20,146 nt of DNA from a virus: positions 1 through 20,146 of the IMG/VR virus record IMGVR_UViG_3300046012_000167, one strand, 5' to 3'. The notes beneath the pieces were generated by a model. The model was not told where the DNA came from and made no database searches. It saw nothing but the letters and a program-made list of their open reading frames with translations. Both the position numbers and the translations under genes were made by a program. Shown here one piece after another: positions 3,199 through 18,781 of this stretch (positions are counted from its first letter, which is position 1; each line of letters begins with the position of its first letter).

Positions 3199-5666
3199 TG
3201 GGTTGCATACTCCGTGATAATGCAAACGCCGCCCGCTCCCGCTCCACCAGCAGCATTTGCAGCGACATTGACGGACATGGCGCCTGAGCCACCGCCGCCG
3301 TAATTGCTGCCTGCTGTGCCAGTGATACTTGCGCCGCCGCTATATGTCGACTTCCCTCCAGCCCCCATGCCTAAACCTGAATTGCCACCTTGCGTAGTCC
3401 CAACTTGATATTGGGCCGTGGCTGCGGACGACGAATATGGCGCATTATTGCCTGACATTCCGGCAGCACCAAAATCTGAAGTGCCAGGTGCTCCACCAGC
3501 GCCGCCGCTGCCAATCGCAGCGCTGCCGCCACCAGTCCCACCAACACCTCCAGCAGCAACACAAATCGATCCACAAGACGTACTGCCGCCAGTGCTGCCA
3601 GTGCCACCTCCAGTGGTGCCAGCAGCAGCACCAGCACCAATTGTTATAGTTTGCGATGCGCCAATCGTTGCTGCTATCGCAATTGTGCGAGCATAAGAGC
3701 CGCCACCGCCGCCGCCACCACCTGTAACAAAACCAGACGCCCCTGCTACGCCACCGCCACCGCCGCCGCCACCAACACATTCGATGACCGCATAAATCAA
3801 CCCCGTTCTCGGAGTGTACGTCCCTCCTGACGTAAAGATTTGTTGAGCAACAACGCCGACACCGCCCAATGTTGATCGTGCTGCGGCAGCAGATGCCGTA
3901 GTCAACACCGCCTTGCCGACCGTCGTGGCGTCGGTGATGTCGGTCGATGCCGGGCCGATCGTCGCTTTGCCGCTGGCTTTTGTGTAGTTGTAGACGCGCC
4001 AGTTACCCGACGCATCGGAGATGGCGACGCAGGTATCGCCAGCCGCAGTTGTGATGTTGGCGGCGCCGGGCAAAATCAACGATGACGAATTGTGCGTTAA
4101 GGTCAGAATGCCGGTGAAGCGAATGAACCGCAGACGGCTCGCGGCGGTGCCAAATCCCGTGATCGTCGTCGTGCCACTGATCGCGACGAATGACGTGCCG
4201 ACAAGGCCAATCTCCGTCGTCGTCGCGCTCGCGACCGTGACTTCGGCCGGACCGATGATCGACTGATTTTTCGAGACATAATTGAAGACGCGCCAGTTGC
4301 CGGAGTCGTCAGACACCGCAAGGCAGGTATCGCCCGCGACCGTGATGATGTTGGCGCCACCCGGCAGGATCAGAGACGAGGCGTTATGCGTGAGCGTGAG
4401 AGCGCCGGAGAAGCGCACGAACCGGACCTGGTCCGCCGTAGTCCCAAAGCCGGTGATTGTGGTGGTGCCGCTGATCAGAATGTTGTTTGTCGCGGCAGCG
4501 CCAATATCGCAGGTCGTGGCTGATGCGACGGTACTTTCTGCACCTGGCGTCCAATTGCCCTTGAGACCGCCGGCAAAGGTTTGAAGCTGCCCTGACGACC
4601 AAGTGTTGGCTGCATTGAGCTGCGGGACGTTGGCGCCGCTAGTGCCGATACCGACGGCACCATCCGAGATGTGATTGCCGGTAGCGTCGCTATAGATTGG
4701 AATATGCCCAGCGGTCGATGTGGTATCGCCGATGACTGTGCCGGAACCGATACCATCGGAGCCTGGAGCCCCAGCCTCGGCGAACAAGATGGTGCAGTTT
4801 TCGGCATTAGTCGGAATCGTCCCGACGCCGATCGGGGTCACCGAGATCTTGCGATAGCCGGTGCCATCGACCACGCTGCCGGTGACCGTAAACAGCATGC
4901 GCTTTTGCGGCGCGCTGATCTGGACGATGCTCAGTCGGCCGCGGTCGGTCGATTTTCCAGGATCATCGAATGTATCGAGAATCGCGGCAATATCGTTGCC
5001 GAACCGATCCAGGTTGTCGAAATAGAGCGTCGTGATCGAGGCAAACGTGCCGCTCGACATCTTGAAGATGCCGTTGCCGGGATCGGAATCCGTGGTGCCA
5101 TTGCCGAAGGCAAGCTCCAGCCCTGCGGTCGGACCGATCGGACCGGTTATGCCGCCGGCGCCGGCGGCGCCGGGCAAGCCGGCCACGGCGATCGTCCAAT
5201 CCGTGAAGGTGCCAGAACCACCGATACCGGTGACGTTGACCGTCAACGACGTGCCGGAATAGGCGCTGGCGATGCCGCCCATGTAATTCAGCGAGGGATT
5301 GGCAGCACTGAAGATCACCAGCGGCGTGCCGGCCGAGAACGACTTGTCGGCCTGCGTCGTGAACGATTTTGAGCCGACGCCAATGGCAACCGACGTCGTC
5401 GATGTAGCGATCAAAGCGGTTGCAGCCGCCGCGGCCGTAACCGCACTGGCGGCAGCCGCTACCGCAGCCGTGTTGGCATAATCAGCGGCATCGGCGATCG
5501 CGTTGGCAACTGTCGCATCGTCCTGCAAGGCAGGAATAAAATTGGTCGTATGACCGCCATGGCCAAACCCGCCCGGATTGGTCGAGGCATTGTAGTCCGA
5601 GCCGTTGTAATAGCTCGCAAGCCGCGCGATCGCAGCCGTAATCGTGCCGCTCCAGGGATAGCTCAT
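3195..5666 (-). CDS. tail fibre protein with polyglycine C-terminal domain
   Basis: An 823-residue protein at the end of the tail operon, where receptor-binding fibres lie. I chose the ATG at 5666, with GAGGTG five bases upstream. Layout: a short anchor (YPWSGTITAAIARLASYY), an Ala-rich helix (residues about 60-90), a collagen-like piece (GLPGAAGAGGITGPIGP, about 164-180), a mixed region, two tandem 98-residue beta repeats (about 379-564), and a linker IFTSGGTYTPRTGLIYAVIE (611-630). The last 190 residues are a glycine-rich domain with two runs of eight glycines. The linker plus polyglycine is typical of phage 'glycine-rich domain' fibres, related in style to Gp38-type adhesins, where Gly-rich loops carry host specificity. 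ATGA overlap with the following gene. Confidence 0.85.
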   Translation of the reverse strand: MSYPWSGTITAAIARLASYYNGSDYNASTNPGGFGHGGHTTNFIPALQDDATVANAIADAADYANTAAVAAAASAVTAAAAATALIATSTTSVAIGVGSKSFTTQADKSFSAGTPLVIFSAANPSLNYMGGIASAYSGTSLTVNVTGIGGSGTFTDWTIAVAGLPGAAGAGGITGPIGPTAGLELAFGNGTTDSDPGNGIFKMSSGTFASITTLYFDNLDRFGNDIAAILDTFDDPGKSTDRGRLSIVQISAPQKRMLFTVTGSVVDGTGYRKISVTPIGVGTIPTNAENCTILFAEAGAPGSDGIGSGTVIGDTTSTAGHIPIYSDATGNHISDGAVGIGTSGANVPQLNAANTWSSGQLQTFAGGLKGNWTPGAESTVASATTCDIGAAATNNILISGTTTITGFGTTADQVRFVRFSGALTLTHNASSLILPGGANIITVAGDTCLAVSDDSGNWRVFNYVSKNQSIIGPAEVTVASATTTEIGLVGTSFVAISGTTTITGFGTAASRLRFIRFTGILTLTHNSSSLILPGAANITTAAGDTCVAISDASGNWRVYNYTKASGKATIGPASTDITDATTVGKAVLTTASAAAARSTLGGVGVVAQQIFTSGGTYTPRTGLIYAVIECVGGGGGGGGVAGASGFVTGGGGGGGGSYARTIAIAATIGASQTITIGAGAAAGTTGGGTGSTGGSTSCGSICVAAGGVGGTGGGSAAIGSGGAGGAPGTSDFGAAGMSGNNAPYSSSAATAQYQVGTTQGGNSGLGMGAGGKSTYSGGASITGTAGSNYGGGGSGAMSVNVAANAAGGAGAGGVCIITEYATQ
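3975..4241 (-). repeat. fibre repeat copy 2
   Basis: Encodes the second copy: TVASATTTEIG, ISGTTTITGFGT, RFIRFTGILTLTHN, SSLILPGAAN, GDTCVAISDASGNWRVYNY. Most residues match copy 1; many third-codon positions differ, so the duplication is not recent. Confidence 0.82.
4269..4535 (-). repeat. fibre repeat copy 1
   Basis: Encodes a beta-rich block running from TVASATTCDIG through ISGTTTITGFGT, RFVRFSGALTLTHN, SSLILPGGAN and GDTCLAVSDDSGNWRVFNY. It is followed 98 residues later by a closely related block. Such stacked modules usually form the shaft of a trimeric fibre. Confidence 0.82.
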
Positions 5667-6547
5667 CACAGCACCTCTTCGACGTCGATCACGGTTGAGC
5701 CGATATCGGCGAGCGCCTGGACGATCGGGGGCGCCGCCTTGAATGTTCCGAGGTAGGAGCGCTTGTTGAAATTGGTGGCGTCGTCAGGATCGGGCACGAG
5801 GAAGATTTGGCGGCTGATGCCGATGCGGTTGCCGATCCGAAAGACGTCGCCCATAAGTTCCTGGAACGACAGCATGTCGAAGGCGAGATGCTGGGTGCGG
5901 CGCTGACCGCGATCCCAGAACGTTCGCTTGCCACCGAGCGACTCGACCATGTCGGTCAGCGGCACCGGCGCGAAACTATTGTCGGGCGTGTAGTTAAGGC
6001 TGGGCCGGAAGGCGCGTCCGATCAGCAGCCGCCCGAATTGCAGATAGCCGTCCGGGTTTGCGGAGTCGAAAACCTCGACCGTCCAATATTGTGCGTTGGC
6101 GAATGACACATTCTCGACCGAGACGATCTCGGCGAGATAAGTCGGCACAATCGTCAGATCGAAGCTGTCGGGGATTCCGTACCAGAAGCCGGGGTCCTCC
6201 CATTGCAGCCAGGCTCCGGTGTCACCCCAATCGATCGTGGTGCCGCTCACCGTGCGTATACCGCTGTCGTATTGCACCGTCAGCATCGCGGCGTCGGCAT
6301 ACGAGCGCGCGCGCCAACTCGCGCCAGGCGAAATATTGGTCGGCCCCACGACAATGCCGCCGATCGGCCGAACGCTGCCGAAGTCGATCGAGAATGCCGT
6401 TGATGCATTCGCCGTGTCGGTCGTGCGCGCGACCTTCTGGATATCCTCGTCCTGCATGTTGGCGCGCGGCAGAGCGGCGAGAAAGCTGCCACCACTGATG
6501 ACGGCCGCATCCGAGAAGTTGTCATAGATAATGACGCAGCTTCCCAT
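5666..6547 (-). CDS. tail protein, discoidin-like N-terminal pattern
   Basis: A 293-residue tail protein, probably part of the tip or a fibre-anchoring piece. The start at 6547 is favoured because it overlaps the stop of the truncated copy (TGATG) and reproduces that copy's N-terminus; an ATG at 6562 is possible and an extension to 6604 is not supported. Residues about 35-110 (LPRANMQDEDIQ, FSIDFGSVRPIGGIVVG, TNISPGASWRARSYAD) follow the strand order of galactose-binding/discoidin-like beta sandwiches, a common carbohydrate-binding fold in phage tails. The C-terminal half is mixed and ends with VQALADIGSTVIDVEEVL. The stop overlaps the fibre gene start as TGATG. Binding function is inference. 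Confidence 0.68.
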   Translation of the reverse strand: MGSCVIIYDNFSDAAVISGGSFLAALPRANMQDEDIQKVARTTDTANASTAFSIDFGSVRPIGGIVVGPTNISPGASWRARSYADAAMLTVQYDSGIRTVSGTTIDWGDTGAWLQWEDPGFWYGIPDSFDLTIVPTYLAEIVSVENVSFANAQYWTVEVFDSANPDGYLQFGRLLIGRAFRPSLNYTPDNSFAPVPLTDMVESLGGKRTFWDRGQRRTQHLAFDMLSFQELMGDVFRIGNRIGISRQIFLVPDPDDATNFNKRSYLGTFKAAPPIVQALADIGSTVIDVEEVL

Positions 6548-6750
6548 CAGAAAGATTCCCATCGCAACCAAGGGCGGATATCGGCATCGCATTGCTCTTC
6601 GCAAACCGCACGAACACCGCTGTCGTAGGCGACCCTGGATTTTTCAGCATCGGAATACGAACGGATGCGCCACGTCGAGCCAGGCGATATGTTCGTTGGG
6701 CCGATACCCTTCCCGAAAAAATTGTCATAGATGATGACGCAGCTTCCCAT
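6547..6750 (-). pseudogene. truncated duplicate of the downstream tail protein gene
   Basis: An open frame of 67 codons that begins with the same eleven residues as the next gene (MGSCVIIYDNF), then jumps to GPTNISPGSTWRIRSYSDA and DSGVRAV, ending WLRWESF and stop. The intact neighbour has the same blocks (GPTNISPGASWRARSYADA, DSGIRTV, WLQWED) but with about 55 more residues between the first two and about 200 more after the last. So this copy has an internal deletion and lacks its C-terminal two thirds. It keeps a ribosome binding site (GGAG seven bases before the ATG at 6750), and its TGA overlaps the ATG of the intact gene, so it may still be translated. A TTG at 6795 could extend it by 15 residues. 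Confidence 0.75.
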
Positions 6751-6816
6751 CGCGCCGCTCCAGATCGGAATTTCAAAAGTGATGAGGCGACTCAATCGCA
6801 GCGACGACGGTGCGCG

Positions 6817-7447: not shown

Positions 7448-9022
7448 TCACCCCCACAATTCCAGCGACGTGAGGCGCTTGGTGAAATCGTCGATGCGGC
7501 CGATCACCAGGAAGTTTTTGCCGGCGCCATAACCGAAGCGCTCGATCGGCGCCGAGAACATGAGCTGGGCCACGGAGCCGATCTGGATCGCCTCGGCGCG
7601 GTCGAAGGTCAGCGTGATCTCCAGCAGCAGCCGATCCCGACGAGATCCGTACATGGCCAGGCGCCGGACCGCTTCCGCTAGGGCGGCTGCCTGTGTGGTC
7701 AGCAGCGTATCGACATTGATTTGCACGGCCTTGGGATGCGCCGTCAGAATGGAGCTGTCCTGCGCCGTCGCCTTACGATCCTGCTGGCTTGTCAGAACCG
7801 CTCGTGTGGCGTCGTCGACAGCACCCACGATCTCGCTGGTCGTCATCTTCTGCCAGATACGGCCCCACGTCAGAGTGACCGCATAGGCAGGCACGCCCTG
7901 CCCTTCCTGGCTGGGCCCGGAGACGAGCGACAGCGTCGTGTTTTCGTTGGCGATATCGCGGATCGTGAAAGTGTCGACCGGATCGCCGGTCGGCAGCGAC
8001 ACACTGATCGCCTGCAGCACGCCGAACTGGTCTGGCAGGATTGCTCCGCCAATCGAGTTGCCGACTTGTCCCAGCAGCGCGTCGGCGTTGCTGTCATCGG
8101 CGATGACGATCCCAATCTCGGCGGGATTGAAGGCATGCAAGGCATCGAAGTTCGCAGTGCCAATATCCGCAGAAGCCCAGCCGAACAGGCTCAACATCCT
8201 TTGCATCACCCGGGCGGCCGAGCGCAGCGCCAGCGTCGCGCCCTCGACCACGTCGGCCGTCACGGTCAGGGCCGGTGCCCCGCCCAGCCGGAAAATGCCG
8301 AGCGCAAGACAGGTGGCGTATTGACCTGGGATCAGAGTGGCGGCGATCAGGCTGGACAGCACCGGATAATCGCCGGCATTGGCCAGCGCGAAGGCGCCGT
8401 CCTTGGCAATGATTGACGACACCGCTCCGCCGGACACCTGGTAGAGTAGGTTGAACGCATTCGCGAGCACGCACGGCACGTTACTGGCCGCGCCGAACAC
8501 CCACGGCTTGATCTGATCCTTGAGGCTGGCGTCTCCTTCCGCGGTCGCGCCCGGGCCAGTCGTTGTCCCGGCATAGCGCGTCGTCAGCAGGGGGTGCTGC
8601 AGCTCGGACAGCCGGTCTGACGTCCGCAGCCGCAAAACCCGGGTCGCATCCGACGAGTCGATCCCCTGCAAGGTGCCCCGAAACACCAATCCCGCCGATG
8701 ACACCGGCGCCGTGATGTCCGGCAGCTGCTTGAGCCGCCACGCCCGCCCATCAAAGCCGTAATCCAACCATGGATCGAGTGCGCCATCGGCATTGTTGAG
8801 CGTAATCAGCCCGACATTGCTCGACGGGGTGCCGAGCGTTCCACCATCCTGGAACAAGGACCGTGAGAACTTCCCCGCATCAACGAGGCGGCCGTCGTAG
8901 AACGTATTCGCCGGCGTATCGTGCGGCCCGGTCGATTTGCTATGGCTTGAATAATACAACGTCTCGACAGCCGAGCCGGTCCACGCGTCGATCTCAAGCA
9001 GATAGACGGACGTGTCAGGCAT
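7448..9022 (-). CDS. tail tip/hub protein
   Basis: A 524-residue protein immediately after the tape measure, the position of distal-tail and hub proteins. Its N-terminal region has the pattern of a recurrent phage tail-tip family: an opening strand, YYSSHSKSTGPHDTPANTFYDGRLVD, a 'GTPSSNVGLITLNNADGALD' stretch and then YGFDGRAWRLKQL. The middle is mixed, and the C-terminal part (RLLLEITLTFDRAEAIQIGSVAQLMF...KNFLVIGRIDDFTKRLTSLELWG) looks like a hub barrel domain. It probably forms the ring that links the tube to the fibres. Start in TGATG overlap with the tape measure stop; the next gene begins one base after its stop. The family pattern is recognised from memory, the exact role is inferred. 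Confidence 0.7.
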   Translation of the reverse strand: MPDTSVYLLEIDAWTGSAVETLYYSSHSKSTGPHDTPANTFYDGRLVDAGKFSRSLFQDGGTLGTPSSNVGLITLNNADGALDPWLDYGFDGRAWRLKQLPDITAPVSSAGLVFRGTLQGIDSSDATRVLRLRTSDRLSELQHPLLTTRYAGTTTGPGATAEGDASLKDQIKPWVFGAASNVPCVLANAFNLLYQVSGGAVSSIIAKDGAFALANAGDYPVLSSLIAATLIPGQYATCLALGIFRLGGAPALTVTADVVEGATLALRSAARVMQRMLSLFGWASADIGTANFDALHAFNPAEIGIVIADDSNADALLGQVGNSIGGAILPDQFGVLQAISVSLPTGDPVDTFTIRDIANENTTLSLVSGPSQEGQGVPAYAVTLTWGRIWQKMTTSEIVGAVDDATRAVLTSQQDRKATAQDSSILTAHPKAVQINVDTLLTTQAAALAEAVRRLAMYGSRRDRLLLEITLTFDRAEAIQIGSVAQLMFSAPIERFGYGAGKNFLVIGRIDDFTKRLTSLELWG

Positions 9023-12000
9023 CAGGACGCCTTGCGCCGCCCAGCGTGGGCAGTCTCCCGCACAAGATCACGCTGAGCCCCAGCGACGATGTCAACGCGC
9101 TCACCGACGTGCGCGGCGCCCATGACGGTTGCCTGCTGGACCTGCCCCAGCCCGCTTTTCTGCTCCTGCCGCAAGGTTGAGACCTCTGCTCGCAGGGAAC
9201 GCAATTCATTCAGAACCTCGCCCATCCCGCCAGCACCGCCCACCGGGAACGGAATGACGTTGCTGGGCAGCGGACGGCCGGCGATCAACGCGTCTACAGT
9301 CTGACGATTTATCGCGGCATTGGCGGCCGGGATGACAGCTTCGCCGTTCGAAAGTCTCACACCGAAAACAGAATCAGACGTCCCCGTGCCCGGACCAGTA
9401 ATCCAGCCACCAGTGGCCACCCCCCCACCTCCAGCCATGAGTTTTGTGTTCGTGGCAATCCTGGTGAGAAACGCATTCGAAGTGTCAATCCGACTGTTGA
9501 TGCTTTGTAGGAACGAAAGCGACGCCAGCGAGGTGACGTTCTGCTGCACCATTTGCGATAGATTGGCATTGGCGGTGTTCAATATCGCCGACATCGTGAC
9601 CAGCTGGGCATAGGAACTAGACGCCGTCGCATTTGCGGTGTCCTGAAGCGTGTTCGCGGCGGATTGCAGCGTCGCCACGGACGCAAGATTCTGGTTCGAT
9701 ATATCGGTCGCGCTCTTGATGAAATTCAACACCGACTGGTTGTCGTTCACCGCGCCGGTGGTGCCACCGATCGCCCCGACCGTGCTGTCGCCCTTGGTGT
9801 TGATCGCGAACGTCTGCACACCCAGCGCGCTGGTCTGGATCGAGCCCTGGGTATTGATGGCCGTGGTCTGCGCCTTGATCAGATCGGCGAGCGTGGTCTG
9901 TGCCGGGAGCGCCTGCAGGGCGGCCGTGACCTGCGCTACGATCGTCTGGTTGCCGGCCGCCGATCCATAATAGGCCTTGCTGGCATCGAGCAGCGTCTGC
10001 GCGTAGCTGGTGATCGAATTAGCGGCGTTGAAGTCACCGCCTTGCGCCAGCGACAATTGAGAATTGAACGCCGTCTGCGCGGAGCCGAGACGGTCCTGCG
10101 GCGACAGCACGGAATTCGAGCCGCCTTTGAGGTTGGCCAGGAACGCCGTGATGCTGGTCGCCAGCGAGTCCTGACTCGCCATCACCTGCTGATTGAACGT
10201 CGTAATGATCTTGAGCCGCTGAGCCGCGAGCGACGTCTCCATCAATATGATGTTCTGGTTGCCCTGCTGGGCCTCGGCGAGGCGCTGCTTGTTGGCGTCG
10301 TAGTCGAACGCCGCCAACTGACCGGCCAGCGTCGTGGTGTCATTGAGCGCTGCGAACAGCGAATCCGTCCAGCCCTGCGCATCGGCCGCGAGCGTGCTGG
10401 CGCTGACCGTGGTGACAAACTGATTCACCACACCGGTCAAGGTCGGGAACTGGTTGATCAGGTCCTGGAACGCCTGCCCGGTGAGCTGGGCATTGTCGAC
10501 GATCGACTGCGCCTGCACCTGAAAGAACTTTGCCACCAGGTTCGGATCGGCGCCAATGCTGGCCGCATCCGTCACATTGCTCTGGTTCGTGGCGATGAGC
10601 GATGAAATGTCGTTGAGATAGCCTTTGCCTTGCGCCGAGTTGATCTTGCCCTGCAGATCCTGCTCGAAGCTCTGGCGCAGCTTGATGATGGCATCCGACA
10701 CCTTGCCGACCACGCCATCGGTCGATAGCCCGAGGTCCGTCAGGGCGCTTGTCAGGCTCTTGGCCGCATCGCTGATGTTATCGAGGCGCGTCTGGATGTC
10801 AGTCTTGGTGACGCCGCTCAGGACCTGCTCGGCGGCCTGCTGCTGCGCTACTGCTCGGTCGGTGAACTGCTTGACCAAGGCGAGGCGCTGCGCCGACAAA
10901 GAATTTTCCAGCGACACCATGGCGGCCCCGCCGTCCTTGGCCTCCTGTAGACGCTGCGCATTGGCATTTGCATCAAACGCTGCGAGCGCGCCTGACTTGG
11001 TGTTGGTATCGAGCGCGGCTGTCAGCGTGCTAAGCTGGTTCGCCGCATCGCGAGCCTCAGCCGCCGCAATGGCCTGATCACGTGCCTGCTGCTGAGCCGC
11101 ATCTTGACCGGACTTGCCGCCGAGGAACCCGAGACCAGCGCCTGCCAACGCTCCAACGCCTGCGCCGATCAGCGTCCCGACGCCGGGCAAAATCATTGTG
11201 CCGATCGCGGCACCAGACAAGCCACCGGACAGCGCGCCAGACAATGCGCCCTGTCCCGGAGACGCGCTCGCCTGCCCCCCCTGATAGGCGCCCACACCAG
11301 CCCCGACAGCAGCAATCCCGCCCAGCGCATAGTTCGGACCTGCCGCAGCGCCAGGCGCCGCCAGACTCAATGGAGCGCCCCCGCCCGGGGTGCTCGCGCT
11401 TCGACGCCATTCGTCTGCCGCCTGCTGGTTCGCGGACTTGATGCCGGCCGCAACAGACTGGGAGAGGTTGTCGTTGGCGCCCGTACCTCCGAAGATGGCC
11501 GCGCCGCCAGCAGCCACCAGCTTGTTCAACGCCATATCGGTGATCTTGTCCGACATCCGCAGCAGCGAATTCGTGAACGCATCGAGCGGCGACTTGCCGC
11601 TGCGCAAGTCGGACAGGAACCCCTTCAGCGCATCATCTGCCAAGTCCTTCATGAGCTTCATGTTGTCGATGACACGAAGCTGCTCGGCCTCCCAACTCTT
11701 CAGCGAGTCCGGAACACTGTCATAAACGCCCCGCAACTGCTGCGCGATGCGCAGGTCCTGATCACTCAATCCAACGGTCGAAAACTGGAATTTTATGTCG
11801 TTGGCGAGCTTGGCCTTCTCATAAGCCGCGGTCTGATCCCTGATCGATTGCGTGACACGATCAAATTGCTTTTGCGCGTTGTCGTTAAGCACCAGCCCTG
11901 ACTGGACCTGTGCGTCATGAGCACTCATTGTGGCGCGCAGCTTTACATAGCTGGCAATCTGGTCGTCAGTGATGCTGCTATCGACAACCTTCGCCGCCTC

Positions 12001-13260
12001 CAGCAATTGAAATTCGGCACGAAGCCCCGCTGCCGCACCTGCCGATTGGCCAAGCGTCATCGTGTCGGCCTGCAGTGTCAGCGTATGACGCTCCAGCGAC
12101 GTCACCGCGCGGTCCCATGCGTCCCGAACCTGCGTCGCTGCGGCCGTGGCAGTATCGGTTGCCTTCGATTGGTCTGCGAGGGCGCTGACGTCCCCCTGAA
12201 ACCTCCCCGCGAAGCTATTGCCCATCCCGCCCGCGAGGCGCTGGCGAGCGGCCGCCATGGCGTCACCCTGGGAAGCAGCAGCGGGCGGTGCGCTGCTCAG
12301 ATAATTGTAAGCCTGGACCGGAGCGCCGATCCCAGGAAGGAATGCAGCGATCTTCGGGACCCAGCTTGGAATGTAGGACATCAAGGCGCTCACCTGGCTC
12401 GCCGCACGAGCCACGGTCTCGACAATGATAACCCAGACATTTTGTAGCTTCAGCGCCGCGTTCGTGACGTCGATCTGGGTCGTCAGAAATTCATTGATTG
12501 TCTGTTTCGCGGCAGCCAATCGCGTGCCAAGGTCGGTCGCGTATTGCACCTGATCGGCTGAGATGCTGTCGGACTGAAACTTGGTGAGCTTCTCCAGGTC
12601 AGCATCCGCACTCGGCGCGTAGAGCTTGCGCTGGGCGTCGACGCTGCCGTATTTGTCGAGAAGCGATATACCCTGGCTGATCACATAATTGAGGCCCTGC
12701 CACGCGATCACGACGGCAGCGATGGGCGGCCCGATGCTGCTGAAAAAGCCCAGCGCTTTGCTTGCGACACCACCAAGAGCGGACGTCGCAACCGACGCAG
12801 TGACACCGATCGCCTGGAGCACGGCCGGCATTGCAAGATTGACCACCCCGCGGAATGCCGGCGACATCGCATAAGCCGCGAGCGCGAGCAGCTTGAGGTG
12901 ACCGATCAGGCTCAGTGTGCTTTCCGCGACGCTGACGAGGCCGGTGCCGACCTTGTCGGCGGCATCCGCGAATTGACCTATGGCGCGAACGTTGTCGTTC
13001 GCCGCGCTCTGGGTCTGCTGCATCGTCTGCAATTGGATATGCTGGTAATTTAACTGCTGCTGGATCACAGCCCCGTAGCGCTTTTCCACTTGCGCAAGGC
13101 TGTTGTCGAAAACCAGCGTCGCCTGCGAAGCGCGCTGCGAGGTCACCGCCACCGCGGCCTGGCCATCGTTGACGGCCTTGAGCGCGCCGGCGACCTTGTC
13201 CTCCCCTGTCGAGGTGAACTCGTAGGTCAGCCGCTTGACCGCATCTTGCATCGTCGTCAT
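9022..13260 (-). CDS. tape measure protein
   Basis: The tape measure sets tail length and is ejected ahead of the DNA. At 1412 residues it is by far the largest gene, and follows the chaperones as expected. The N-terminal part is helical and Gln/Ala-rich, with a hydrophobic segment around FFSSIGPPIAAVVIAWQGL; a central Gly/Ala-rich hydrophobic region (PGVGTLIGAGVGALAGAG, near 11110-11250) may insert in the host membrane. Two related blocks lie 223 residues apart (see repeat entries). The C-terminus carries the classic tape-measure signature GGWITGPGTGTSDSV then VRLSNGEAVIPA. With the usual rule of about 0.15 nm per residue the tail would be roughly 210 nm. No peptidase or transglycosylase domain is apparent. 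Its stop overlaps the next start as TGATG. Confidence 0.95.
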   Translation of the reverse strand: MTTMQDAVKRLTYEFTSTGEDKVAGALKAVNDGQAAVAVTSQRASQATLVFDNSLAQVEKRYGAVIQQQLNYQHIQLQTMQQTQSAANDNVRAIGQFADAADKVGTGLVSVAESTLSLIGHLKLLALAAYAMSPAFRGVVNLAMPAVLQAIGVTASVATSALGGVASKALGFFSSIGPPIAAVVIAWQGLNYVISQGISLLDKYGSVDAQRKLYAPSADADLEKLTKFQSDSISADQVQYATDLGTRLAAAKQTINEFLTTQIDVTNAALKLQNVWVIIVETVARAASQVSALMSYIPSWVPKIAAFLPGIGAPVQAYNYLSSAPPAAASQGDAMAAARQRLAGGMGNSFAGRFQGDVSALADQSKATDTATAAATQVRDAWDRAVTSLERHTLTLQADTMTLGQSAGAAAGLRAEFQLLEAAKVVDSSITDDQIASYVKLRATMSAHDAQVQSGLVLNDNAQKQFDRVTQSIRDQTAAYEKAKLANDIKFQFSTVGLSDQDLRIAQQLRGVYDSVPDSLKSWEAEQLRVIDNMKLMKDLADDALKGFLSDLRSGKSPLDAFTNSLLRMSDKITDMALNKLVAAGGAAIFGGTGANDNLSQSVAAGIKSANQQAADEWRRSASTPGGGAPLSLAAPGAAAGPNYALGGIAAVGAGVGAYQGGQASASPGQGALSGALSGGLSGAAIGTMILPGVGTLIGAGVGALAGAGLGFLGGKSGQDAAQQQARDQAIAAAEARDAANQLSTLTAALDTNTKSGALAAFDANANAQRLQEAKDGGAAMVSLENSLSAQRLALVKQFTDRAVAQQQAAEQVLSGVTKTDIQTRLDNISDAAKSLTSALTDLGLSTDGVVGKVSDAIIKLRQSFEQDLQGKINSAQGKGYLNDISSLIATNQSNVTDAASIGADPNLVAKFFQVQAQSIVDNAQLTGQAFQDLINQFPTLTGVVNQFVTTVSASTLAADAQGWTDSLFAALNDTTTLAGQLAAFDYDANKQRLAEAQQGNQNIILMETSLAAQRLKIITTFNQQVMASQDSLATSITAFLANLKGGSNSVLSPQDRLGSAQTAFNSQLSLAQGGDFNAANSITSYAQTLLDASKAYYGSAAGNQTIVAQVTAALQALPAQTTLADLIKAQTTAINTQGSIQTSALGVQTFAINTKGDSTVGAIGGTTGAVNDNQSVLNFIKSATDISNQNLASVATLQSAANTLQDTANATASSSYAQLVTMSAILNTANANLSQMVQQNVTSLASLSFLQSINSRIDTSNAFLTRIATNTKLMAGGGGVATGGWITGPGTGTSDSVFGVRLSNGEAVIPAANAAINRQTVDALIAGRPLPSNVIPFPVGGAGGMGEVLNELRSLRAEVSTLRQEQKSGLGQVQQATVMGAAHVGERVDIVAGAQRDLVRETAHAGRRKAS
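10145..10347 (-). repeat. tape measure internal repeat, copy 2
   Basis: Encodes DTTTLAGQLAAFDYDANKQRL followed by METSLAAQRLKIITTFNQQ. Similarity to copy 1 is clear in protein and weaker in DNA, which suggests an old duplication that lengthened the ruler. Limits are approximate. Confidence 0.7.
10814..11016 (-). repeat. tape measure internal repeat, copy 1
   Basis: Encodes DTNTKSGALAAFDANANAQRL, then a helix with SLSAQRLALVKQFTDRA. It matches copy 2, which lies 669 bases (223 codons) further along the gene, with the order D-T-T, LAAFD, QRLxEAxxG, SLxAQRL, Q preserved. Confidence 0.7.
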
Positions 13261-13979: not shown

Positions 13980-14782
13980 TCAAGTCGATCCGGTTGGCAT
14001 GTTCATCGCCTCGGCGGCAACCGCGGCCCGCCGGTCACCCAACCGCACCAGCGCCCGCGCTTCCCAATGCTCCAAATCCAGTCGCATGAAACCGCACCAC
14101 GCCTGCAGGCATTCCCATGTGACCACCGGATGGCCCATTCCGTTCTGCGAAAGACCGGGGCAGATCTCGAGGAAGTAGCCCCACAGGTAGATCAGACCAT
14201 CCGGACATTGCGGACCGAGTGGATCGGCACGCGCGGCCGCTTTGACATTGCCGAGCTTGGCCCACTGCGCGGCCGCCGATTTCTTATGATCCGATTCCGT
14301 CGCACCGTCGGCGACCTTTCGGGCGTTGCGGAATTCGTGCTCGGCGAAGACGATCAGGTCGTCGACGAGCGCCTGATAAAATTTCCGGCGGTGTTCACGA
14401 ACACCCAGGCCTGCCGCCGTAGCCAACCCATCGCAGGATCGGTCCAGAGCTCTTTCGCGTTATCCTTAGAGAACGGCACGTCGAGCGCCTTGCCGTCGAG
14501 ATCGACCAGATGCCAACCCGCGGTGAGCGCCACAAGCTTGTCGACCTGCTGCTCGGTCAGATCGTCATCGTCCTGCAGGTTGCGCCCCGAGCGCATCTTG
14601 CGCATGACCTGCAGCGATTGTGCCCGGTCGATCTTGCGTCCGACCTCGCTGTCCGGCGACAGAAAGGAGATGAACGCCTCCTTGTCGTCCGAGTCCTTGA
14701 GAACAGCCTCGGTGAGCGGGCTGGTGATCGGCATCGAGAAGGCGTCGGAAACGTTGGCGGCAAGCGCCGCGAATTTGCTCAT
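13980..14782 (-). CDS. tail assembly chaperone, frameshifted long form (gpGT-like)
   Basis: A -1 slip at the heptamer A_AAT_TTT (14384-14378) would join the first 135 residues of the short chaperone to 132 residues of the overlapping frame (YQALVDDLIVFAEHEFRNA... to MNMPTGST), giving about 267 residues. The second frame has no convincing independent start: its only long reading opens inside the G gene with a weak start. The T-like part has a helical start, a middle with GLIYLWGYFLEICPG, WECLQAWCGFMRLDLEHWEA, and an alanine-rich end. The arrangement mirrors lambda G/GT and most long-tailed phages, where the fused form recruits the tape measure. If frameshifting does not occur, the second frame would be a separate gene, roughly 13980-14426. 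Confidence 0.72.
14354..14782 (-). CDS. tail assembly chaperone, short form (gpG-like)
   Basis: A 142-residue protein in the slot between tail tube and tape measure, where lambda has gene G. Tail assembly chaperones bind the tape measure protein and tube subunits during tail polymerisation and are absent from the finished virion. The start MSKFAALAANVSDAF at 14782 has AAGGA about nine bases upstream; an upstream in-frame reading would add an arginine-rich leader running through the hairpin spacer and is rejected. The body is acidic and helical (DDDDLTEQQVDKLVALTAGW), then ELWTDPAMGWLRRQAWVFVNT. The last residues overlap a second reading frame that continues as the GT form. Confidence 0.78.
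   Translation of the reverse strand: MSKFAALAANVSDAFSMPITSPLTEAVLKDSDDKEAFISFLSPDSEVGRKIDRAQSLQVMRKMRSGRNLQDDDDLTEQQVDKLVALTAGWHLVDLDGKALDVPFSKDNAKELWTDPAMGWLRRQAWVFVNTAGNFIRRSSTT
14378..14384 (-). promoter_or_regulatory. programmed -1 ribosomal frameshift slippery site
   Basis: Read on the minus strand in the G frame the sequence is gga AAT TTT atc, i.e. the heptamer A_AAT_TTT, which fits the X_XXY_YYZ rule exactly and shifts into the frame AAA TTT TAT that encodes the T part. It lies eight codons before the G stop. A short inverted repeat GTGTTC-gt-GAACAC (14391-14404) ends six bases upstream. Sequence match and phase are seen directly; efficiency is unknown. Confidence 0.72.
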
Positions 14783-14898: not shown

Positions 14899-16146
14899 TC
14901 AGGAGGCTTCGGTGTCGACGATCTGGATGGTGGTCTGATCGACGCCGGGATCGGAGCCGACGTACTTCAGCGCCTGGAACGGCATCGTGATGGTCTGTCC
15001 GCCTTCACCGCTGGTGGCGACATCGGCATCGGAGAACTTGATGCGCGGCAGCAGTACCGTCATGGCCGGCGTGCTGTCGGCGTTGGCCGTGGTGAGATAG
15101 GCCAGGACGCTGACCTCGTCCTCATCGGTGAAGTTGCCGATCAGCGCACCGTCCTGAAGATTGGCGGTGATTTGCCCGGTGACATTGGCGCGACCGAGGA
15201 AGATTTCCGGGACGACATCTTGCCCGACCACAGGATCGGATGACGGACTCAAGGTCATCTGGATGTTGAGCCCGGTGACGACGCCGACCGTCGCTCCATT
15301 GACGCGCAGCAGACCGTTGACCGCGGCAAGGATGCCGGTGGTCGTCTCTGCAGTCGGCGAGGTGAAGTAGGGCGCATCGGAATCTTCCAGCACCACCATG
15401 TTCCGGCCCATCAGCGGAAACTCGATGGTGCTCAGACCCGACGCCGGCAATTGCATGGTGAAGCCGCCGACGCGGTTTTCGGTGAACAGCCGGGCGACGT
15501 CGATGTCCTCGTTGTAGATCTCGATCCCGAGCTTGCGGCTGACATGACCCGTCGACGGCACAATCAACCGTTGACCGACCGTCACGAGGTCGAAATCCGT
15601 ATCTGCGCTCATGTCGACCGGCGCCGGATGCACCGTGAGGGTCCGATTGGACGAGCCGCCGAAGGCGAGGATCAGGAAGTTCTTGGCATTGTCGCCCGCC
15701 GTCGAGGCATTCGTCAGCCGAACGACATGACCGACGCGAAGGCCGAGCGCCACCGGATCGCCGGCCGCGAACGTCAGACTGTTGCCTGATGCCGACGCGG
15801 CAACACTCGTCAGGTCGGTTTCATCCAGCGCGACCGCCGCTTCCCATGTGCCGCGGAACGCAGCCTCGAACCAGTCGGCATAGGTCAATGGGCTCAACTC
15901 GCCGGTGACCGACCCGCTGACCCGCCGGGTGCCATGACGATAATCCGCGATCTGCCGATCGCTGCGGATTTCGTTGGACTGGTAGGTATCCTTGCCCAGC
16001 TTCAGCGACGCCGACACACGTCGCAGGATCTGGGCGCCGCTGGCGCCGGGATCGGTCGCCGTGTCCGGCTCAGCATTGGCGGCGATCACGCCGGACGAAT
16101 AGAACTTGTACGACACGCGCGCGGATACGCCTTCTGCGAGCGGCAT
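14899..16146 (-). CDS. major tail (tube) protein
   Basis: The main structural subunit of the tail tube, about 415 residues. The N-terminal block with TYQSNEIRSDRQIADYRHG followed by RRVSGSVTGELSPLTYADWFEAAFRGTW is the characteristic opening of the phage tail tube protein family TTP_2. The rest is beta-rich with several Thr/Ser/Gly repeats typical of tube and Ig-like decorations. Two ATGs are possible: the one at 16152 lies only one base after AAGGAG, while the ATG at 16146 lies seven bases after it, so I prefer 16146 (MPLAEGVSARVSY). The gene is flanked on both sides by hairpin-rich spacers, unlike its overlapping neighbours, which suits high-level expression. Confidence 0.88.
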   Translation of the reverse strand: MPLAEGVSARVSYKFYSSGVIAANAEPDTATDPGASGAQILRRVSASLKLGKDTYQSNEIRSDRQIADYRHGTRRVSGSVTGELSPLTYADWFEAAFRGTWEAAVALDETDLTSVAASASGNSLTFAAGDPVALGLRVGHVVRLTNASTAGDNAKNFLILAFGGSSNRTLTVHPAPVDMSADTDFDLVTVGQRLIVPSTGHVSRKLGIEIYNEDIDVARLFTENRVGGFTMQLPASGLSTIEFPLMGRNMVVLEDSDAPYFTSPTAETTTGILAAVNGLLRVNGATVGVVTGLNIQMTLSPSSDPVVGQDVVPEIFLGRANVTGQITANLQDGALIGNFTDEDEVSVLAYLTTANADSTPAMTVLLPRIKFSDADVATSGEGGQTITMPFQALKYVGSDPGVDQTTIQIVDTEAS

Positions 16147-16152
16147 GGTCAT

Positions 16153-17707: not shown

Positions 17708-18781
17708 CTACGCTCGCGACACAGCAGACAGCAGCGGATACAGGTCAAGATCAATTCTCGATCCGTCGCCGTTGGTCAGTGTCAGAAGGGCCTCATCGCT
17801 GATGTCTAACCGGACTACAGCCTTGGCCGCGTCGCCCCGCTGACCGCGCTCGCCTGGCGCCCCGCGCTTGCCCTGCGAGGCAATAAGCTGCCAGCCCTCG
17901 CCTGGGCACGGGCCCGGGTTGTCGGTACGGGCCAGGAACGACGCCCCATTCAACACGACGATATCGAGCTCACGGTAATCGCCGCGCGCGGGTTCAAAAG
18001 TCCCTTCAACCCGAAACGAGCGGCCTGGCTGACCATCACGGCCGGCGCGCGCCAAGCATATCCAATCGTCATGCCCAGGCTTTCTGCCGGTATCCTTGAT
18101 CGCCTGATAGGTCTGGCCGTCGTGCACCACAACCGCGCCCTCGTAGTGCACGCGATCGCTCCACTCGCGGACGACCGGAAGTTTCCCATCCTTCCCCGCC
18201 GGCGCCGCCGGCAGCGCCGCGACGGCGTCGCCAACCATCCGCGCAATCACCGCCGGGTCGGCATCCTTGCCCGCCGGCGCCGCGGGCAGCCCCGCCACAG
18301 CGCGCGCCACCGCGTCGTCCACCATCGACGCCACAAGCGCCGGATCTGCATCCTTGCCCGCAGGGGCCGCCGGCAGCGCCGCGACCGCCTCCGCGACCGT
18401 CCGCGCAATCACCGCCGGGTCGGCATCCTTGCCCGCCGGCGCCGCGGGCAGCCCCACCACAGCGCGCGCCACCGCGTCGTCCACCATCGACGCCACAAGC
18501 GCCGGATCTGCATCCTTCCCCGCCGGCGCCGCCGGCAGCGCCGCGACGGCGTCGCCAACCATCCGCGCGATCACCGCCGGGTCGGCATCCTTGCCATCTT
18601 CGATGACGGCCAATCGATCAGCAACATCGCGCTCAAGCCTCGCCAGACGTAATTCCCGCTCGGCATCGATCCGCCGAAGATTGGAGATCGCCGCTTCGAT
18701 CCGCAGCGCCGCCTCCCGCTCAATGCGGCCGGCAACAAGCGCGAGTTCATCGACAAGCGTCTCAAGCGGCGAAGCGGGCAT
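17708..18781 (-). CDS. collagen-like repeat protein with carbohydrate-binding-like modules
   Basis: A 357-residue protein, directly downstream of and overlapping the portal gene. Residues 1-62 are charged and heptad-like, probably coiled coil. Residues 63-195 are five tandem units, each opening with GKDADPA and closing with LPAAPA, alternating 25 and 29 residues long (A-B-A-B-A). Residues about 211-244 (YEGAVVVHDGQTYQA...DDW) and 268-302 (DIVVLNGASFLAR...EGWQLI) look like two copies of a small CBM5/12-like module, known from many phage fibre and decoration proteins. Gly-X-Y collagen-like triplets follow each module (GRDGQPGRS near 247; GKRGAPGERGQRGD near 304). The overall design suggests a trimeric extended fibre or capsid decoration protein exposed on the virion. 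The position between portal and connector is unusual and suggests a head or neck appendage, but the role is inference. Confidence 0.72.
   Translation of the reverse strand: MPASPLETLVDELALVAGRIEREAALRIEAAISNLRRIDAERELRLARLERDVADRLAVIEDGKDADPAVIARMVGDAVAALPAAPAGKDADPALVASMVDDAVARAVVGLPAAPAGKDADPAVIARTVAEAVAALPAAPAGKDADPALVASMVDDAVARAVAGLPAAPAGKDADPAVIARMVGDAVAALPAAPAGKDGKLPVVREWSDRVHYEGAVVVHDGQTYQAIKDTGRKPGHDDWICLARAGRDGQPGRSFRVEGTFEPARGDYRELDIVVLNGASFLARTDNPGPCPGEGWQLIASQGKRGAPGERGQRGDAAKAVVRLDISDEALLTLTNGDGSRIDLDLYPLLSAVSRA
18197..18595 (-). repeat. tandem protein-coding repeat, 162-base super-period
   Basis: This is an in-frame repeat array inside the collagen-like gene. Five units encode GKDADPA...LPAAPA with alternating 75- and 87-base lengths, so the pair repeats every 162 bases. 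The first and last units encode the same amino acids and are nearly identical in DNA; their matching 5' flanks on the plus strand start at 18187 and 18511, 324 bases apart. High nucleotide identity implies recent expansion or ongoing homogenisation by recombination. Confidence 0.85.

Follow-up and report, generated by a model that had tools for sequence, protein, structure and literature searches.

A conserved A_AAT_TTT heptamer as the predicted -1 frameshift site joining the G and T tail assembly chaperone frames of a siphovirus-like phage and its relatives

Results

Analysis of a 20,146-nt stretch of viral DNA (hereafter the window), whose genes are all carried on the minus strand, points to a lambda-type G/GT tail chaperone pair that would be made by -1 programmed ribosomal frameshifting at the heptamer A_AAT_TTT. 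From sequence comparison and structure models we put the probability of this reading, in a siphovirus-like phage or prophage, at roughly 0.94; the host is probably an alphaproteobacterium. An earlier note on this DNA had proposed such a frameshifted chaperone pair, and the proposal is supported by the exact -1 phase, the conserved heptamer, the startless T frame, the protein families and the predicted fold. The site is a textbook case of a known kind of system.

Layout of the tail genes and identity of the joined product

The genes run in the order major tail protein, G, T, one extra gene and tape measure protein, which places the pair between the major tail protein and the tape measure (Table 1). 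G matches the tail assembly chaperone family phrog_313 (E 2e-8) and begins at AAGGAAAGAAATCCA-ATG, in which AAGGA is a good Shine-Dalgarno sequence with a duplex energy of -5.7 kcal/mol; its stop lies 7 codons past the slip site. The T frame is open from 14459 to its stop at 13980, and its -1-frame overlap with G, 106 nt long and open throughout, is a layout repeated in related loci. The shorter interval of 14354-14426 is the overlap measured from the earliest candidate T start, a TTG, to the G stop. Joined, G and T encode a product of 267 aa.

Table 1 Features of the tail gene region of the window.
Feature	Position	Strand	Remarks
Major tail (tube) protein	14899..16152	-	PF18906 Phage_tube_2, E 8e-22; precedes G
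G frame, short tail assembly chaperone, 142 aa	14354..14782	-	ATG 14782, stop 14354
TTG, sole candidate T start before the slip	14424..14426	-	Judged unused
Inverted repeat GTGTTC-gt-GAACAC	14391..14404	-	Six bases upstream of the slip; judged incidental
A_AAT_TTT slippery heptamer	14378..14384	-	Predicted re-pairing: P-site Asn AAU to AAA, A-site Phe UUU to UUU
T domain after the -1 shift (YQALVDD..., 132 aa + stop)	13980..14378	-	PF23812 Phage_TAC_18, E 8.5e-8, above cut-off
Gene between T and tape measure, 236 aa	13267..13977	-	phrog_16336, E 2.5e-42, unknown function
Tail length tape measure protein	9022..13260	-	phrog_16823, E 4.9e-19

Two families of tail assembly chaperones of fused size give alignments to the 267-aa protein that span the junction, namely phrog_8233 (residues 61-239; 28.6 bits vs 19.0 for G alone) and phrog_15027 (residues 28-205). 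The structure model of T reached a pLDDT of 91 from 28 sequences, with a helix beginning at residue 2 after the slip. When this model was compared with viral models using Foldseek, the chaperones of Seurat, K1H and Loki were among the top matches, with a weaker match to Sansa; a fold search of T against the PDB found no match (best E 0.68). The Seurat, Loki and Sansa chaperone genes are themselves deposited as joined pairs. Membership in these families and in this fold suggests that the GT product would serve as a tail assembly chaperone.

The gene that follows T is kept across the AAATTTY clade; in locus L011 its place is 5' of the major tail gene. It is syntenic with Loki ORF14, a 'putative tail completion protein', and its model (pLDDT 79) had no match in a PDB fold search; it may be a displaced neck or tail-completion gene. 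Elsewhere in the window, imperfect direct repeats of 75-94% identity (6244-6346 vs 6600-6702, and 6516-6548 vs 6719-6751) suggest that the beginning of the 312-aa gene at 5666-6604 was duplicated, the duplication being decayed or partial. A 162-nt tandem repeat of 2.5 copies (91%; 18187-18595, minus strand) lies within the ORF at 17708-18781 and encodes recurring 'AGKDADPAVIARMV...' segments, while two adjacent minus-strand ORFs, at 512-1309 and 1413-1997, resemble cell-wall lytic enzymes by eye, one being muramidase-like and the other D-Ala-D-Ala peptidase-like.

Position, phase and conservation of the heptamer

In the phase of G the site reads GCC GGA AAT TTT ATC, and a -1 slip at the heptamer yields ...TAGNF-YQALVDD..., which bears out the placement of A_AAT_TTT in the overlap, in the correct phase to enter T, by the earlier note. 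Judged from the sequence and a published rule (PMC4066793), the heptamer lets both tRNAs re-pair, with fully cognate re-pairing in the A site. AAATTTT occurs as a single copy in the window, and 0.75 copies are expected per shuffle, so the bare motif alone is not rare. Across long ORFs of related contigs, however, an in-phase X_XXY_YYZ is found at 0.15% of codons and AAATTTY at only 0.012%, and the latter frequency implies that AAATTTY would fall in phase within the 106-base overlap by chance in about 0.4% of cases, for one genome.

In order to compare the junction among relatives, 80 viral contigs were fetched with the major tail protein as the anchor query; searches of viral contigs with the fused GT protein or with the gene downstream of T returned no matches. 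The nearest set comprised 23 contigs with 54-77% identity in the major tail protein, one of which (L020) ends before the junction. In the remaining 22, which represent 19 distinct sequences besides the window, both G and T were located. The eight of these that make up alignment A2 are 40-49% identical to the window.

All 22 near relatives carry AAATTTT or AAATTTC, in the G phase, exactly at the G/T junction, and in most of them the G match stops on the very nucleotide where the T match begins. When 20 sequences were aligned by codon, the heptamer came first for conservation among 719 7-nt windows. Its last base is always T or C in this set, giving the two Phe codons that permit cognate re-pairing. 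The T-frame Phe codon at the slip is TTT in 23/23 sequences vs 34% of Phe codons in these contigs, a count to which no formal probability is attached owing to shared ancestry and double coding. Double coding also fixes the heptamer in part through protein constraint, so that its nucleotide conservation depends partly on the amino acids encoded.

A separate codon bias was observed a little further into T. At the fourth codon after the slip, Leu is written CTC in 56 of the 59 sequences that have Leu there, compared with 23% of Leu codons elsewhere in T. An RNA element was considered as the cause and set aside, double coding being simpler: with CTG or CTA a stop could arise in G, and CTC gives a conserved G-frame Ser. 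The bias therefore probably reflects double coding with this Ser together with avoidance of a premature G stop.

Alternative explanations for the two frames

T might instead be a separate gene, perhaps translationally coupled to G, that is read from its own start at the TTG at 14426. This codon does lie 48 nt 5' of the slip, and many distant loci have a start-like NTG at this place, but the TTG of the window is a by-product of a G-frame Trp codon, TGG, that is invariant in the alignment (W120). The sequence upstream of it pairs with the anti-Shine-Dalgarno at -3.0, close to the background median of -2.6 and far from the -5.7 of G. In at least 20 of the 22 near relatives the T frame lacks ATG, GTG and TTG alike between the upstream stop and the heptamer (L012 being an exception), that stop often sitting just 9-15 nt 5' of the slip, and 49 of 74 loci in the wider set likewise lack all three codons from the T-frame stop to the slip. 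Moreover, both the homology and the predicted fold of T begin right after the heptamer. An independent start is thus very improbable, in agreement with the earlier view that T has no convincing start of its own. The comparison of relatives that had been proposed as a check of the frameshift accordingly shows the heptamer kept and a second-frame start and ribosome binding site not kept, the reverse of the pattern that had been named as speaking against it.

Explanations that act before translation deserve even less weight. In bacteria, slippage during transcription normally takes a run of some 8 or more A or T. An A/T run within GC-rich DNA, such as this site, might suggest slippage by RNA polymerase, but homopolymers in AAATTTT are no longer than 4, and the heptamer keeps one invariant codon phase, which ribosomal slippage requires; polymerase slippage has been mentioned at Tn with n > 8 (PMC3711429), and we regard it as having next to no likelihood here. 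A mutation or assembly error that split a single ORF would be conceivable for one contig from a virus collection, yet the same -1 layout recurs dozens of times, in independent contigs, in prophages and in deposited phages, and this conservation refutes it, leaving it a negligible probability.

A variant of the favored frameshift reading would make the upstream repeat, or a structure downstream, a necessary stimulator. The window has the 6-bp stem upstream, and the downstream regions of several relatives fold better than shuffles, with z to -3.2 among near relatives and -5.2 in one distant locus. A 6-bp stem is found in 2.6% of the 26-nt windows of this genome, however, and most relatives reach only 3 bp, so that the repeat reported in the earlier note is indeed present six bases upstream but does not stand as part of a conserved signal. 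RNAalifold, applied to 73 nt downstream in 18 sequences, found no conserved pair among pseudoknot-free folds, and the window itself folds at the shuffle background (z +0.17 downstream, and -0.59). An Rfam search gave chance matches only, and upstream Shine-Dalgarno-like elements were inspected by eye. Since the repeat varies among relatives and no consensus RNA structure was detected downstream, only the heptamer is supported as a signal, and an obligatory stimulator is unlikely.

Slip-site variants and annotation in the wider family

Across 74 loci the commonest slip sequences are GCTTTTT (24), AAATTTC (15) and AAATTTT (14), AAATTTY accounting for 29 of 74 in total. AAATTTT is found in three prophages from rhizobial MAGs (L091-L093, one of them a Mesorhizobium), in Bradyrhizobium phage ppBdUSDA122-1 and in two Acinetobacter phages, and AAATTTC in a Synechococcus phage; prophages of Massilia and other Burkholderiales carry G_CTT_TTT or C_CGT_TTT. 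In the more distant relatives the slip varies (G_CTT_TTT, G_CGT_TTT, G_GGA_AAC) and the junction and -1 direction are constant, although this direction is directly tested only where both frames were matched, since at loci where homology located just one frame the script took the other to be in the -1 phase. Sites of sequence GGGAAAC are placed one codon 5' of the column that holds AAATTTY, and 51 of 69 distinct sequences have the G stop 7 codons after the slip.

These variants raise the possibility, which we advance tentatively, that one homologous junction has repeatedly swapped its slip sequence between lineages, rhizobial phages having A_AAT_TTY, Massilia-type prophages G_CTT_TTT and other loci G_CGT_TTT or G_GGA_AAC. 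The junction itself, the -1 direction and in many cases the 7-codon spacing would have been retained, without a detectable RNA stimulator. Such loci would form a natural stimulator-free series tuned to the tRNA sets of their hosts.

The frameshift is unannotated in the relatives checked. T is listed as a separate hypothetical gene, with its start downstream of the slip, in records of Bradyrhizobium, Synechococcus, Roseobacter, Pasteurella and Acinetobacter phages and of a Rhizobium plasmid. In deposited relatives (L082, L083, L084, L085, L086, L087 and L090) T is a separate gene that starts well downstream of the slip, and the N-terminal part of T is consequently missing from those records.

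Discussion

Under the proposed mechanism, most ribosomes would translate G and terminate 7 codons after the slip, and a minority would slip back one base on A_AAU_UUU by tandem slippage, tRNA-Asn moving from AAU to AAA and tRNA-Phe from UUU to UUU, and then read T to give the 267-residue GT protein. We infer the slippage itself, its efficiency and the chaperone role. By analogy with lambda, many copies of G and few of GT would bind the tape measure protein, with the T domain recruiting the major tail protein.

Work in E. coli indicates that the best bacterial motifs permit cognate re-pairing in the A site, that UUY A-site codons are highly shifty, and that R_RR.U_UU.Y is among the exceptions listed for the requirement that X and Z be both purines or both pyrimidines (PMC4066793). 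The invariable T or C at Z in the AAATTTY family fits this exception and the shiftiness of UUY. G_CTT_TTT in the distant relatives would act through its U_UUU tetramer; in E. coli the second rank goes to U_UUY tetramers, with low levels (PMC4066793). Chaperone sites of the HK97-like kind, measured elsewhere, shift at 6-7% (PMC3711429).

The closest general parallel is the tail assembly chaperone G/GT frameshift of lambda, which was reportedly described by Levin in 1993 and Xu in 2004. It has since been reviewed (PMC5009743). As in lambda, the pair lies between the major tail and tape measure genes, its overlapping frames are in -1 register, the slip is near the end of G, and G and T domains are joined in a minor fused product, here a predicted one. 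Unlike lambda, which slips at G_GGA_AAG, the phage studied here has A_AAT_TTT, a T domain of PF23812 and an extra gene between T and the tape measure.

The tape measure chaperone of Escherichia phage Seurat (KM236243, CPT_Seurat13/14) shares the fold of T (TM 0.70, E 8.6e-4) and is deposited as ribosomal slippage at ...AAT TTT TTC, where T_TTT_TTC stands next to AAT_TTT. It differs in having T_AAT_TTT followed by T_TTT_TTC, with the slip close to the G stop, and in its identity of just 18%. Acinetobacter phage Loki (LN890663, LOKI_12/13) is likewise a fold match with joined frames, and a gene separates its chaperone from its tape measure, but its heptamer is A_AAA_AAC; the junction of Sansa, a weaker fold match to T, is G_GGA_AAA. 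The Vandenendeviridae and Andersonviridae chaperones have an invariant GTTTTT, identified by comparative genomics (PMC12846349), and thus also a conserved -1 site, rich in U, where the short chaperone frame ends. They belong to other families and their site is not A_AAU_UUY, although the G_CTT_TTT of the distant relatives described here is similar. The suggestion in the earlier note that a non-lambda heptamer makes the site a notable variant therefore does not hold, since Seurat, Loki, Sansa and the Vandenendeviridae already use others and non-lambda slip sites, annotated in the first three, are ordinary. A literature search for AAATTTT in tail genes returned no relevant paper, a result that is weak as evidence of absence.

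Together these results settle the annotation of T as the C-terminal half of a fused chaperone, in a gene that is widespread and unannotated. The natural slip variants at one homologous junction provide material for the study of frameshift efficiency outside the enterobacteria.
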